A DNA stretch of 64,000 nucleotides from an uncultured Collinsella sp. (GTDB taxonomy: Bacteria > Actinomycetota > Coriobacteriia > Coriobacteriales > Coriobacteriaceae), in assembly GCA_958407465.1 (NCBI GenBank), contig CATYIV010000002.1:39873-103872 (forward strand), read 5' to 3'. The position numbers and the translations under genes were made by a program. The notes beneath the pieces were generated by a model that was not told the origin of the DNA, ran no database searches, and saw only the letters and a program-made list of their open reading frames with translations. Shown here one piece after another: positions 4,066-64,000 of this stretch (position 1 is its first letter; each line of letters starts with the position of its first letter).

Positions 4066-5532
4066 ATGCGTATCTACAACAGCGCTACCCATAAAAAGGA
4101 AGAGTTCCAGCCCATCGAGTCCGGAAAGGTCCGCATGTACGTGTGCGGCCCCACGGTCTACGACAACATCCACATCGGCAACGCCCGCACGTTCATCAGC
4201 TTTGACGTAATTCGTCGCTGGCTCATCGCGAGCGGCTACGAGGTCACGTTCGCCCAGAACCTCACCGATGTCGACGACAAGATCATCAAGCGCGCCAACG
4301 AGCAGGGCCGTACCGCCGCCGAGGTTGCGACGGAGTTCTCTGACAAGTTTATCGGCGTTATGCGCGCCGCCAACGTGCTCGATCCCGATGTGCGCCCCCG
4401 CGCCACCAAGGAGATCGGCCCCATGATCGCCATGATCAAGACGCTCATCGAGCAGGGCCACGCCTACGCCGCCGATAACGGCGACGTGTACTTTGCCGTG
4501 CGCAGCGATCCCAACTATGGTCAGGTCTCGGGCCGCAACATCGACGACCTTATGGTTGGCGCGCGCATCGAGGAGAACGAGGACAAGAACGACCCGCTCG
4601 ACTTTGCCCTGTGGAAGGCCGCCAAGCCCGGCGAGCCCAGCTGGCCGAGCCCCTGGGGCGAGGGCCGTCCCGGTTGGCACACCGAGTGCGCCGCCATGGT
4701 GCACCGCTACCTGGGCACCCCGATTGACATCCACGGCGGCGGCTCCGACCTTGCCTTCCCGCATCACGAGAACGAGTGCGCCCAGGCCACCTGCGCCTGG
4801 CACCAGGGCTTCTCCAACACCTGGATGCACACGGGCATGCTGCTGGTAGACGGCGAGAAGATGTCTAAGTCGCTCGGCAACTTCTTTACGCTGGCCGAGG
4901 TCCTCGAGCAGCACTCCGCTGCCGCCCTGCGCCTGCTGATGCTGCAGACGAGCTATCGCTCGCCGCTCGACTTTTCATGGGAGCGCCTGGAGGGTGCCGA
5001 GAACTCGCTCACGCGTATCGCCGGTACGGTCGAGAACCTGCGCTGGGCCGCGAACCATGCGACGGCCGATGCCGATGAGACTGCCGCCGAGGCGCTTGCC
5101 GCCAAGGCCGCCGAGACCCGTGCCGCCTTTAAGGAGTGCATGGACGATGACTTTAACACAGCCGGTGCCATGGGCGCCGTCTTTGGCTTTGTGACCGAGT
5201 GCAACCAGTACCTGGAGCAGGCGGGCGATGCTGCCGACAAGGCCGCCGCGCTTGCCGCCGCCGATACGCTGGCCGAGTTGCTCGATACGTTTGGCGTCGA
5301 GCTTCCCGAGCCCAAGGTCGAGCTGCCGCTGGGCCTGCTGGGCGTTGCCGCCGGCCTGGTTGCCTACACGGGTGACGACGTGGACGAGGCAGCTGCCAAG
5401 ATTCTCGAGGCCCGCGCCGAGGCCCGTGCCGCCAAGAACTGGGATCTGGCCGACGCCATCCGCGACCAGCTCAAGGACCTGGGCCTCACCATTGAGGATA
5501 CCGCCGCCGGCACCCGTATCAAATCTCTCTAA
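4066..5532 (+). CDS. cysS: Cysteinyl-tRNA synthetase
   Basis: A class I synthetase of 488 residues that charges tRNA-Cys. The zinc Cys is in MYVCGPTVYDN (C27), the HIGH box appears as HIGN at 36-39 and KMSKS is at 265-269. The anticodon-binding region is C-terminal. It follows ispF by 3 bases. MrnC, which often sits between cysS and rlmB in Bacillus, is absent; a structured repeat and a terminator fill the gap. Confidence 0.96.
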   Translation: MRIYNSATHKKEEFQPIESGKVRMYVCGPTVYDNIHIGNARTFISFDVIRRWLIASGYEVTFAQNLTDVDDKIIKRANEQGRTAAEVATEFSDKFIGVMRAANVLDPDVRPRATKEIGPMIAMIKTLIEQGHAYAADNGDVYFAVRSDPNYGQVSGRNIDDLMVGARIEENEDKNDPLDFALWKAAKPGEPSWPSPWGEGRPGWHTECAAMVHRYLGTPIDIHGGGSDLAFPHHENECAQATCAWHQGFSNTWMHTGMLLVDGEKMSKSLGNFFTLAEVLEQHSAAALRLLMLQTSYRSPLDFSWERLEGAENSLTRIAGTVENLRWAANHATADADETAAEALAAKAAETRAAFKECMDDDFNTAGAMGAVFGFVTECNQYLEQAGDAADKAAALAAADTLAELLDTFGVELPEPKVELPLGLLGVAAGLVAYTGDDVDEAAAKILEARAEARAAKNWDLADAIRDQLKDLGLTIEDTAAGTRIKSL

Positions 5533-32516: not shown

Positions 32517-33653
32517 ATGCGTCTGCCTATGAACACCTCGCTTGCCACGCTCAAGCCCTCCGGCATCCGCCGGATCAACGCACTCGCCGCCCAGCACCCA
32601 GGGTGCATCGCGCTTGCGCTTGGCGAGCCCGATTTTCCTACGCCCGATGTGATTAGCGCCGAGGTGACGGCCTCGCTCGACCGCGGCGACACGCACTATC
32701 CGCCCAACAACGGTCGCCCCGCCCTGCGCGAGGCGCTGTCTGCCTACATGGGGGACGCGGGCCTTACGTTTTCGGCCGACGAGGTCATCCTGACCGACGG
32801 CGCGACCGAGGCCCTGTCGGCAACATTCATGGCTATGCTCAACCCCGGCGACGAGGTCATTATCCCCACGCCGGCCTTTGGCCTGTACGAGAGCATCGTC
32901 GTGACCAACCATGCCAAGGCGGTCTTTTTGGATACGGAGCCTGCGCAATTCCAGATTGATGAGGAGGCGCTTCGTGCCTGCGTGACACCGGCGACTAAGG
33001 CCATCGTCATCTGCTCGCCCAACAACCCTACGGGCTGCATCCTCGACGCAGCATCGCTCGATGCCGTGGCGCGCGTGGCAGAGCAGGCAGGCATCTACGT
33101 GGTCTGCGACGACGTATACAACCGCTTGGTCTATGTGGATGGCTACGAGCGCTTTGCCCAGCGCCACCCGGAGCTACGCGAGCAGACAGTGGTCATCGAG
33201 AGCTTCTCCAAGCCTTGGGCTATGACCGGCTGGCGCTTGGGTTGGCTCGCAGCGGCAGCCCCCGTCATCGCCGAGATCGCAAAAGCCCACCAATACCTAG
33301 TATCGAGTGCCGTTTCATTTGAAATGGACGCCGCAATGCGAGCCCTGACCGTCGACCCAACCCCCATGCTCAAAGTCTACCGAGCCCGCCGCGAACGCGT
33401 ACTCGCAGCCTTAAACGTCATGGGCCTCAACGTAGTGGAACCAGCCGGCGCCTTCTACGCCTTCCCCAGCATCAAAAAGTTCGGCCTAACAAGCGAAGAT
33501 TTCTGCATCAAAGCCATCAAAGAAGCAAACGTAGCCCTAGTCCCCGGAGACTGCTTCGGAACCGAAGGCCACATCCGCCTCAGCTACTGCGTCTCCGACC
33601 AAGATCTGGACGAAGGCCTCCACCGCCTGTCAAGCTTCGTGTCAACGTTGTAG
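32517..33653 (+). CDS. Class I/II aminotransferase (PLP-dependent)
   Basis: A 378-residue fold-type I aminotransferase. Visible are GEPDFPTP, the Pro-Asn motif SPNNPTG, CDDVYNRLVY, the PLP lysine in SFSKPWAMTGWRLGW and a final substrate Arg in HIRLSY. It resembles aspartate/aromatic aminotransferases; the donor is unknown. GAAAGGA precedes the ATG. From about 33250 codon use changes abruptly to A- and C-ending codons (GCA, CGA, GTA, CTA, AAC), unlike its own first two thirds. Confidence 0.9.
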   Translation: MRLPMNTSLATLKPSGIRRINALAAQHPGCIALALGEPDFPTPDVISAEVTASLDRGDTHYPPNNGRPALREALSAYMGDAGLTFSADEVILTDGATEALSATFMAMLNPGDEVIIPTPAFGLYESIVVTNHAKAVFLDTEPAQFQIDEEALRACVTPATKAIVICSPNNPTGCILDAASLDAVARVAEQAGIYVVCDDVYNRLVYVDGYERFAQRHPELREQTVVIESFSKPWAMTGWRLGWLAAAAPVIAEIAKAHQYLVSSAVSFEMDAAMRALTVDPTPMLKVYRARRERVLAALNVMGLNVVEPAGAFYAFPSIKKFGLTSEDFCIKAIKEANVALVPGDCFGTEGHIRLSYCVSDQDLDEGLHRLSSFVSTL

Positions 33654-33700: not shown

Positions 33701-33930
33701 GGGGGCGTCAGCCAACGAAAACCCGGGCTGCCCAAAGTCAACGCAGGCCGCGCCGCCAAAGGCCAGGCGCAAGGTTTTCGTAGATTCCGCACGAGCCGAA
33801 GAGCACTTAATGTGCTCTTCGTGCGAGCCAGGACTTGACCGAGCGAAAACCTTGCGCCTGGCCTTTGGCGGCGCGGCCGGATGGTGGAATTGTGTGCAGC
33901 CCGGTTTTCCGTTGACCGACGCCGGGGTCC
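33701..33930 (+). repeat. Giant hairpin element, copy 1
   Basis: A perfect 35-bp inner arm (33746-33780 with 33844-33878) encloses the common core (33781-33843), whose apex is GAGCACTTAATGTGCTC. After an internal loop, outer segments pair again: GGGCTGC with GCAGCCC, and CAACGAAAACC with GGTTTTCCGTTG. The right outer arm contains the -35 box of the rplJL promoter. The core is shared with copies at 46.6 and 63.9 kb; the arms are not. Confidence 0.85.
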
Positions 33931-44705: not shown

Positions 44706-44714
44706 GTTGAAGAA

Positions 44715-44751
44715 AACCTACCAAAAAGGGACAGGTTTATTTTGGTAGGTT
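44715..44751. repeat. Palindrome with GGGACAGGTTTA loop
   Basis: AACCTACCAAAA (44715-44726) pairs exactly with TTTTGGTAGGTT (44740-44751). The loop is the complement of the AAACCTGTCCC loop at 18096, so this copy is in opposite orientation. Confidence 0.75.
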
Positions 44752-45362: not shown

Positions 45363-46389
45363 CAATCTTGCAGATCGCGTTCTTAATGCAGCTGAAGGCG
45401 AGCCGCTTCGCAAAAGGGGTCATGCTAAGCCCCTCTATGTTGCGGTTATCGGATGTCTTGCCGGAGTGTTGGCGACCGGAGGGGTCGCCTACGCCGTTGT
45501 CAATTCCAGCTATTTTGCCTCAGCCTGGGGAAACCACGGCAACGGGGATTCCATTACCTGGACCAACGGCGGCTCATCGGGAACTAAATATACCTACACC
45601 AGAGAGTTTGGCGATGGCATCGCGCCCCAAAGCCTGGAGGGCACAGTCCAGAAGGTTAATCTGTCCGTCGAGGGTAACGGCTATACGCTTGATATCCATG
45701 AGATGGCAATCGACCAAAACGGCTGCGGAGCCGTGACGTTTACGTTGTCCAATCCAAATGGAGTTAACTACTACAAGCCAGCAGCAGAGATTGGCGAACT
45801 TGTTCTCTATGGTGAAGAAGAACAGGGCATCGGCACGCCCGATATGAAGTTCGGCGAGGAATGGCCTGACACACGCAGCACAATTGATAAGGACACATCA
45901 AGCGATACTGTCATTAATGGCACGATGTACTTTGCCGCTATGGATCGCGAGCGAGATTTGCAACATGCGGTCACCTGGAATATCCACTGGACCGAGGGTG
46001 AAGGTGAGAGTGCGAGGCGGTTTGAGGCGTCGACACCCGAGTTCAATATTGGAGCGTACGTCGATACAAAGGAACTCCGCTCCGGTGACTCGCCTCTTGA
46101 GATTAGCCCGTTTTCCATCCAGACGCACATCGATGATTTGGGCTATGAAGCAGTTGATAATAAGCTGACCGTCAGCTACAAGGATGGATCGGAGCAGATT
46201 ATCGAAGATGACGACGCAGGGGTGTTCAACTTATATTTTTCTTATGGGCGCAATAGCGGAGAGAACATCTGGGTGCCAACGAAGTTGATTGATGTCGAAC
46301 AAGTGGTCTCAGTAACGCTTGAGGGCACGAGGTGCACGTCAACAGGGGAGACCGAAACAAAAGTACCCTTTACCATCGTCTATTCGTAA
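45313..46389 (+). CDS. Membrane-anchored putative anti-sigma factor
   Basis: A 358-residue protein. A cytosolic segment of about 38 residues is followed by one membrane helix (residues 40-63, YVAVIGCLAGVLATGGVAYAVV) and a large extracytoplasmic part rich in Asn, Gly and Ser. This resembles DUF4179-like partners of ECF factors. The start is GTG 45313, inside the sigma gene. Anti-sigma function is inferred from topology and overlap. Confidence 0.65.
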   Translation: MKSNQIKQAFESIQADSNLADRVLNAAEGEPLRKRGHAKPLYVAVIGCLAGVLATGGVAYAVVNSSYFASAWGNHGNGDSITWTNGGSSGTKYTYTREFGDGIAPQSLEGTVQKVNLSVEGNGYTLDIHEMAIDQNGCGAVTFTLSNPNGVNYYKPAAEIGELVLYGEEEQGIGTPDMKFGEEWPDTRSTIDKDTSSDTVINGTMYFAAMDRERDLQHAVTWNIHWTEGEGESARRFEASTPEFNIGAYVDTKELRSGDSPLEISPFSIQTHIDDLGYEAVDNKLTVSYKDGSEQIIEDDDAGVFNLYFSYGRNSGENIWVPTKLIDVEQVVSVTLEGTRCTSTGETETKVPFTIVYS

Positions 46390-46394
46390 GGTCT

Positions 46395-46429
46395 GAGGCC
46401 GCTTCCTACTAGGGGAAGCGGCCTCTTTT
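46395..46429 (+). terminator. Terminator of the sigma/anti-sigma operon
   Basis: GAGGCCGCTTCC (46395-46406) pairs exactly with 46414-46425, then TTTT. Confidence 0.88.
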
Positions 46430-46564: not shown

Positions 46565-46711
46565 CGTCGGATTCCCGGCCCGGGCGGCCGGCGGCTTAAG
46601 TTTGTCGCGAGTTCCGCACGAGCCGGAGAGCACTTAATGTGCTCTCCGTGCGAGTCAGGACTGTAGAGCAGCAAACTTAACCCCCGCGCCGCCCGGTCCG
46701 GGAATCCACCC
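46565..46711 (+). repeat. Giant hairpin element, copy 2
   Basis: Left arm about 46569-46607 (GGATTCCCGG at the outside, CTTAAGTTTG inside) pairs with 46671-46707 (CAAACTTAA ... CCGGGAATCC) with several mismatches in the GC-rich middle. The core 46608-46670 matches that of copy 3 at nearly every base. It fills the spacer before the rpsL promoter. Confidence 0.85.
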
Positions 46712-63168: not shown

Positions 63169-63795
63169 ATGAAGAAGCTGTATCTACTCCGCCACGGTCA
63201 GACGGAGTTCAACGTCAAAAAGCTGGTCCAGGGCCGCTGCGATTCACCGCTCACCGACTTAGGCCGTCAGCAAGCCGGGATGGCAGCCGCATGGCTCAAA
63301 GCCCACGGCGTCGTCCCCGACAAAGTGGTCTCATCACCTTTGGGCCGAGCCATGGACACGGCAAGTCTCGTCGCATGCGAGCTCCTCGGCCCGGACGCAG
63401 CAGTCGAGCCCTGTGAAGGCATTATCGAGCGCAGCTACGGCACCTTCGAAGAAGGCCCCCACGACGCCCTGCCCACCGACGTCTGGGATCCAGGCGAGGA
63501 CTTAATCCCATTCGGAGGAGAAGGAAGCCAGGCACTGCAAGAGCGCATGGTAGACACCCTCACCAATATCATGGGCGCCGAGGGCATCGAAACCCTCCTA
63601 GCAGTAAGCCACGGCAGCGCCAGCCGCCAATTCATCAAGGCTGCAGCCCCAGAGGGCTTCGGGCTCCCAACAAAACTCCCCAACTGCGCCATCATGATCT
63701 TCGATTTTGATGAGGCAAAGCCACAAGCAGAAGGCGAGTCAATGCAACGCAAGTTCACCCTCCAGCAAATAGTGGATCCCCAACAAAGTAATTAG
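63169..63795 (+). CDS. Histidine phosphatase (phosphoglycerate-mutase-like)
   Basis: A 208-residue enzyme with the RHG motif at residues 8-10 (LLRHGQTEFN), Arg in SSPLGRAMDTA, Glu in IIERSYGTFE and the second His in AVSHGSASR. Substrate unknown; it is probably not the glycolytic enzyme. GGGGAGA precedes the ATG. From about 63270 to the stop the codons switch to A/C-ending forms (GCA, CCA, GGA, CTA), as in the aminotransferase, and a giant hairpin follows. Confidence 0.87.
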   Translation: MKKLYLLRHGQTEFNVKKLVQGRCDSPLTDLGRQQAGMAAAWLKAHGVVPDKVVSSPLGRAMDTASLVACELLGPDAAVEPCEGIIERSYGTFEEGPHDALPTDVWDPGEDLIPFGGEGSQALQERMVDTLTNIMGAEGIETLLAVSHGSASRQFIKAAAPEGFGLPTKLPNCAIMIFDFDEAKPQAEGESMQRKFTLQQIVDPQQSN

Positions 63796-63825: not shown

Positions 63826-64000
63826 GTGGCGTTCCCAGTGTGCGGCGGAGGGGGCGGGCCTGAGACATATTAAGGTTGTCGCGAGTTCCGCACGAACAGG
63901 AGAGCACTTAATGTGCTCTCCGTCGTGAGCAGGACTGTAGAGCAGCAACCTTAATATGTCTCAGGCCCGCCCCCTCCGCCGCACACTGGGAACGTGCCAC
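63826..64000 (+). repeat. Giant hairpin element, copy 3
   Basis: A 48-bp perfect inverted repeat (63831-63878 with 63946-63993) encloses the core (63879-63945). Outside it, GTGGC (63826-63830) faces GTGCCAC at the very end of the window after a 2-base slip, so the arm may continue beyond. Core apex is GAGCACTTAATGTGCTC, as in copies 1 and 2. Confidence 0.88.

Follow-up and report, generated by a model that had tools for sequence, protein, structure and literature searches.

A dispersed hairpin family of Coriobacteriia with a constant core and site-specific arms that are probably matched by template switching

Repeats of the ERIC, NEMIS and bcr types are dispersed hairpins of 100–160 bp whose stems are common across copies. 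The family reported here resembles them as a set of dispersed hairpins and, going by that description, differs in that its arms vary by site. REPs are described as elements of 20–40 bp with family-wide stems, a GTAG or CGTC tag and RAYT transposases; REP and BIME hairpins are extragenic, multi-copy, often downstream of genes and sometimes in opposed pairs, and REPs are thought to be non-autonomous mobile DNA (PMC3733652). The present element is likewise dispersed, extragenic, multi-copy and near gene ends, but it measures about 140–220 bp and combines a constant core with site-specific arms.

A second point of reference is template switching between inverted repeats, which has been reported to homogenize the arms and to invert the spacer (PMC8604942). 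According to Monttinen and Loytynoja, stems arise and persist through this process, which would also explain why G-C pairs exceed C-G and U-A pairs exceed A-U (PMC8794818). The two signatures found below are the same; the published cases are described in yeast genes and RNA genes, whereas here an entire repeat family, its arms about 20–49 bp long, would be subject to the process. Long perfect inverted repeats that persist in evolution are also described in Nematomorpha mitochondria (PMC6649704); those palindromes lie in coding genes, no common core is mentioned for them, and they are not a dispersed bacterial family. The Collinsella-1 RNA motif (RF01700) is listed for Actinobacteria and the human gut (PMC2864571), a likeness that extends to the Collinsella in its name; it is not among the Rfam matches of the window, nor among the relaxed matches of copies 3 and 1.

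The window is a stretch of 64 000 nucleotides from an uncultured Collinsella sp. At the gathering score, Rfam gives five tRNAs only in the window and nothing in two relatives; relaxed searches with copies 3 and 1 (E up to 5) return just microRNA-, IRES- and sRNA-family matches below the gathering scores. The sequence-only reading, made without database searches, knew of no named element of this design; no Rfam family was found at the gathering score and none was convincing at relaxed thresholds. As far as our searches of the open literature reach, no published family combines an unchanging core with arms that vary freely yet match each other, and within that reach this repeat, spread through a major class of gut bacteria, is undescribed.

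The core pattern matches the window three times, always on the + strand, and has no match in 100 shuffles. Inverted-repeat and pattern searches therefore bear out the three same-strand hairpins with a common core that had been noticed earlier, with a core of about 50 nt. Copy 1 (33704..33923, + strand) has decayed outer arms (33704–33734/33893–33923; 31 nt, 84%) and perfect inner arms (33746–33780/33844–33878; 35 nt, 100%) around a spacer at 33781–33843, with the core motif at 33785–33835. Copy 2 (46569..46707, + strand) has arms of 36 nt that match at 86 per cent (46569–46604/46672–46707), a spacer at 46605–46671 and the core motif at 46612–46662. Copy 3 (63830..63994, + strand) has perfect arms (63830–63878/63946–63994; 49 nt, 100%), a spacer at 63879–63945 and the core motif at 63886–63936; it is recognized by its fold energy as well as by its inverted repeats and core pattern. 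Folded as DNA, it reaches −88.5 kcal/mol, compared with −28.7 ± 3.2 for 200 shuffles (z −18.7). The perfect pairing first read over 35 bp in copy 1 holds, and that of copy 3 extends over 49 bp, not 48. The core letters first given need correction at two places: the apical stem of copy 1 is GAAGAGCAC/GTGCTCTTC, and copy 3 has GTCGTGAG where copies 1 and 2 have GTGCGAG. These differences among the window copies are paired variants of one fold.

Copy 1 follows an open reading frame (ORF) ending at 33653, which by translation we take to be an aminotransferase, with ORFs that are presumably ribosomal L10 and L7/L12 beyond. Copy 2 lies between an ORF ending at 46389, with a terminator-like hairpin at 46395–46425, and the S12 ORF; at the same site in an annotated relative, a DUF4179 protein and rpsL flank the element. 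Copy 3 stands behind an ORF ending at 63795, which is annotated as a histidine phosphatase in a relative where rplC lies on the other side. The 175-base stretch containing copy 3 is 99.4 per cent identical to a C. aerofaciens record.

From the outside inwards, the element consists of outer arms, variable arms, a proximal stretch, an internal loop, a helix, a middle stem and an apical stem. The copies studied include 15 of genome G034, which has more, and 29 of G029, from the stretches examined. The outer arms are weaker and present in several copies. The variable arms are GC-rich, with a median of 28 paired positions in G059, 18 in G034 and 21 in G029; the proximal stretch differs by lineage and is AT-rich in C. 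aerofaciens. In the helix AGTTC/GGACT a U.G pair is invariant in 68 of 68 copies, the middle stem has at least three paired variants (AGCC/GTGCGAG, CAAA/GTCTTGCG and AACA/GTCGTGAG), and the letters of the apical stem change pairwise. Over the 68 copies, from three Collinsella genomes, 96.3 per cent of cells are paired, against 64.2 per cent when shuffled and at most 47.2 per cent when slid, and 784 cells show two-sided changes against 253 when shuffled; fitting the alignment to the structure favours pairing, yet the margin is large nonetheless. Two-sided change affects 28 of the 35 pairs, a number that 40 of 500 shuffles also reach. The covariation of the core points to selection as well.

Perfect long stems are usually taken as proof of selection on RNA. 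Comparison of orthologous haplotypes with their nearest neighbours (61 pairs with at most four differences each, some pairs sharing an event) covered 1954 pair positions, among which 39 changes were two-sided and 54 one-sided. Under independent mutation, simple arithmetic predicts about 0.4 two-sided changes, which agrees with the earlier judgement that arms this perfect are unlikely under ordinary decay. Indels are matched as well: one G:C pair separates loci L030 and L162 in each arm, and window copy 1 and L070 are likewise set apart by a single pair in each arm. At another site a whole block has changed, the distal GGTCCCCGG being kept while the remainder of either arm has another sequence and another length; the two versions, of 33 and 44 bp, are both perfect. 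Locus L011 carries a hybrid, its left arm one base from that of L163 and its right arm equal to that of L175, and it is mispaired where these two differ. A dead copy in L069 (2438–2509) has lost the core and become a palindrome: perfect arms of 30 bp surround a 10-nt loop and continue through the former internal loop, where its orthologues have 21 bp. In a second dead copy, that of L123, a deletion left only part of the left arm.

The spacer can also be inverted. At a site common to L064, L067 and L317 (the last from G059, C1:587864–587977), the spacer of L317 is the exact reverse complement of that of L064 (67/67; direct identity 22/67), and the arms are identical, 31 and 31 bases. At two more orthologous sites, L034/L351 and L338/L359, the core stands in opposite orientations between diverged species and the arms differ; these flips could be separate insertions. 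Outside the proximal ten pairs, G-C exceeds C-G at 20 sites against three (p 0.0005), and T-A exceeds A-T at 13 sites against nine (p 0.52, not significant), so that the base-pair asymmetry expected from template switching is half present. Judging from these alignments, arm homogenization and spacer inversion both appear to occur in natural alleles, and the arms seem to be kept complementary largely at the DNA level. Copying and selection had been put forward as alternatives; it looks like both, homogenization, matched indels, palindromization and inversion pointing to copying and the covariation to selection on the core.

In Coriobacteriia the element forms a dispersed, non-coding hairpin family, which is probably a non-autonomous mobile one and behaves in the genome much as REP and ERIC repeats do. 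The account that we favour, and hold to be probable overall, is that of a mobile hairpin family whose arms are matched by template switching and whose core fold is under selection. The hairpin would form when the DNA is single-stranded, during replication or repair, and the polymerase would then leave one arm and continue on the other as its template. A change in either arm would thereby be removed or passed on to the partner arm as well, and the core would be flipped by a switch that crosses it. Recombination between alleles may produce hybrid hairpins that are later re-matched. The core fold would be kept by selection, either for a putative mobilizing enzyme or as a hairpin in the 3′ untranslated region of the gene at whose stop codon the element often lies; mobility, a function of the RNA at mRNA 3′ ends, or the two together may be what is selected. 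In its workings the element resembles a dispersed hairpin repeat of the REP/ERIC type, and in its evolution a quasipalindrome. Among the points against this account, one-sided changes outnumber two-sided ones, so that correction is incomplete, the T-A excess over A-T is not significant, and there is a single clean inversion (L317 versus L064). The core could equally be flipped by homologous recombination of one arm with the other, a route that the data do not separate from polymerase switching. Comparing strains at the dozens of natural sites that the family provides allows homogenization, matched indels, hybrids, palindromization and inversion to be looked for, and the shares of mutation, through template switching, and of selection in stem covariation become directly testable in bacteria.

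A more speculative extension, which we consider rather unlikely, is that the core is a built-in hairpin and template-switch device, in which the other arm serves as repair template, the flip of the core acts as an orientation switch at gene ends, and a putative class-wide enzyme recognizes the single-stranded core. If true, the element could vary its arms and still regain a perfect hairpin.

Among the rival explanations, the strongest is a functional RNA under ordinary compensatory selection, in which mispaired copies are removed and nothing is copied between arms. It would accommodate the strong covariation, the invariant U.G pair of the helix and an orientation-biased placement behind stop codons. 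With genes called by an ORF script, stops within 50 nt counted and negative distances denoting overlap with an arm, 18 G059 copies have an opposing gene at the right end, and in 14 of them its stop is no more than 50 nt from that end; at the left end, 4 of 20 are near the stop of a gene running in the same direction (Fisher p 0.0009). The corresponding counts, on the same definition of right-end denominators, are 9/11 and 3/10 for G034 (Fisher p 0.03) and 4/19 and 0/14 for G029 (Fisher p 0.12). Overall, 27 of the 76 copies of these three genomes closely follow an opposing gene's stop codon. An annotated C. aerofaciens record offers an independent view: of 12 copies whose surroundings were examined (the ends of two being estimated from the core position), five end 16–29 nt from an annotated opposing stop, those of manA, a UvrD-like gene, tsaD and two hypothetical genes; one more lies about 65 nt from the PNPase stop and the remaining six are without an opposing stop at the right end. 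The element may shape mRNA ends.

Compensation through G.U intermediates should yield nearly all transitions. Among distinct changes at orthologous sites (pairs with up to five differences; 36 two-sided and 55 one-sided), transitions make up 23/36 (64%) of the two-sided and 37/55 (67%) of the one-sided changes, similar shares that fall short of the near-total share expected. The strand of a functional RNA was sought from wobble pairs in the arms, which gave no answer: the remaining arm mismatches are 25 G.T, 19 A.C and 29 others, without a clear preference for wobble, and one arm position shows 16 G.T, all from G034 and G029, against two A.C. Matched indels, palindromization and the exact inversion of a spacer go beyond what selection on point changes would produce, and we regard a functional RNA without copying between arms as unlikely.

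The extent of the family was surveyed with two covariance models, R1 against 58 relatives and R2 against 296 genomes of Coriobacteriia, the latter scoring up to 12 candidates per genome. R1 matched 39 of the 58 relatives, and R2 matched 161 of the 296 genomes, in 54 of 125 genera. The R2 matches are strong in families f1, f2 and f5; the one to three per genome in more distant families may be false, because the model rewards any long hairpin. Slackia and Tractidigestivibacter are carriers outside Collinsella among the matches listed. In the nearest of the genomes compared, which has 61 per cent of the sampled words of the window, a 13-base apex motif occurs 15 times, each time in a hairpin with 22–39 arm pairs. 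After hand removal of opposite-strand matches to the same copy, we counted 27 copies in G025, 27 in G015 and 32 in G059, all of the C. aerofaciens group, G059 being a single contig. Some sites are apparently common to two species (L348/L335 and, at the copy 3 site, L345/L318) and others are not; the family is therefore old and has moved. The genomes of f2 share the core GCGAGTTCCGCACGAGCC, a stem, then GTGCGAGC.AGGACTG. By eye, CAGGTT or CAGGTC stands just outside the right arm in 13 of the 20 f2 copies inspected (among L383–L411), possibly the end of a mobile unit. Genomes G125, G129 and G118 have many weaker matches of about 85–95 nt, below element length, perhaps a reduced form or plain hairpins. 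Contigs L077, L079, L084, L088, L090, L097 and L110 start or end within about 13 nt of the hairpin core pattern; several short-read contigs stop within the element, which seems to break assemblies.

Another rival is a REP element mobilized by an IS200/IS605-type (RAYT) transposase, an identity suggested by the extragenic, multi-copy hairpins, sometimes in opposed pairs, and by the fact that 37 of 43 Collinsella genomes have a Y1 transposase gene. This we think quite improbable: carriers G006 and G034 have no Y1_Tnp match, and no linked Y1 gene was seen by eye in G025, G015, G059 and G008, where the nearest lies about 3.9 kb from a listed copy, the copy lists being partly incomplete. Nor is the tag constant, the GTAG-like position reading GTAG, GTCC, GCCC, GTTC or GTTT among copies, and the element has the wrong size for a REP. 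Reverse transcriptase (PF00078), present in seven of 18 genomes (5/11 carriers and 2/7 others), does not track the element either; neither it nor the Y1 transposase emerged as the mobilizing enzyme.

The nuclease SbcD cuts hairpins. In the same set of 18 genomes it exceeds the cut-off in none of the 11 carriers and two of the seven others, with weaker matches in three carriers. Strong carriers, defined by at least five matches and a best E < 1e-12 in lists of carriers and SbcD read by hand, make up 8 of the 54 genomes with SbcD and 78 of the 242 without it (p 0.012); outside Collinsella the link is not significant (p 0.15).

The idea that the arms were made at insertion, one flank being copied onto the other at the core hairpin, had been raised in the sequence-only reading, and arms that vary from site to site would be in keeping with it. 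Two sites with empty alleles contradict it. Locus L156 of C. aerofaciens has two copies about 2 kb apart (at 448 and 2464) with the same distal arm and outer sequence, the common sequence running from AGG(G)AACGTTGCCC to GGGGATTCCTTT; the second is flanked by the RNA polymerase beta′ ORF and by that of a sigma factor. This second site is empty in the window (44714..44724), L089 and L142, with no arm sequence in the 90 nt aligned per side. The other polymorphic site is occupied in L107, L127 and L372 and empty in L006, L092, L103, L148, L173, L333 and L370 (about five genomes, some loci repeating a genome); five of these seven empty loci were aligned, and arm sequence is absent there also (90–100 nt per side across both sites). 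These alleles show that copies are gained or lost together with their arms, the empty state being presumably ancestral. Since arm sequence is absent at the empty alleles, the arms are not a copied flank, and the arms of the second L156 copy resemble those of the copy 2 kb from it. Of the copying once proposed, the arm-to-arm kind is thus indicated and the flank-to-flank kind at insertion is not supported; as an origin of the arms, the latter is very improbable. The empty sites and the family-wide copies do uphold the notion of a dispersed, mobile-type element. There is no sign of arms derived from phages or plasmids: phage records gave 0 matches and viral contigs 0 exact matches to two core patterns, and the sole match among plasmid records is a C. 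aerofaciens sequence of 899 693 bp in which ribosomal protein genes are present as well. This record (NZ_OY725717.1; L413–L418), filed as a plasmid, has rplC, rpsL, groEL, thrC and tsaD, and is probably a piece of chromosome.

The arms had been described as copy-specific, which holds between sites; at the copy 3 site, by contrast, four alleles are common to strains. A search with the left flank of copy 3 matched 29 of 43 Collinsella genomes, of which 21 full-length matches were used and eight genomes with short, weak ones dropped. The resulting 22 sequences, with the window, fall into arm alleles A (10, including the window), B (6), C (5) and D (1), scattered over the left-flank tree, which was read without support values. 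Within alleles, the element diverges by 0.4–1.4 per cent and the 1200-nt left flank by 9–11 per cent, so that the arms are not evolving fast and steadily, a further point against the account favoured above; the low divergence calls for recent spread or purifying selection. In allele B the 260 columns nearest the element differ by 3.4 per cent, and the right flank, leading to rplC, diverges by about 1 per cent within alleles. These patterns suggest that the alleles are probably spread by recombination, conserved while they last and replaced as units.

All three window copies lie near ribosomal protein operons, which might suggest a leader or regulator dedicated to such operons; this is scarcely credible, as other copies adjoin unrelated genes and the window copies lie there because the window comes from a region of ribosomal genes. 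Twenty proteins neighbouring G059 copies were scanned, and the 15 with a Pfam match had no function in common. A role as chromosome-organising site, also proposed earlier, is not supported by the replication strands, on which the 27 copies of one single-contig genome are divided 14 to 13. In L329, two opposed copies (2031–2147 and 4879–4994) surround the valyl-tRNA synthetase gene, one about 20 nt before its start and the other about 15 nt behind its stop. A copy between thrC and thrB, directly before the thrB start (L010 and L416:1554–1758), is an exception to the stop-codon placement. In C. aerofaciens TSDC17.2-1.1, an IS200/IS605 tnpA (L414:15436–15894) lies directly upstream of rpsJ, which in this strain stands with fusA, apart from rplC.
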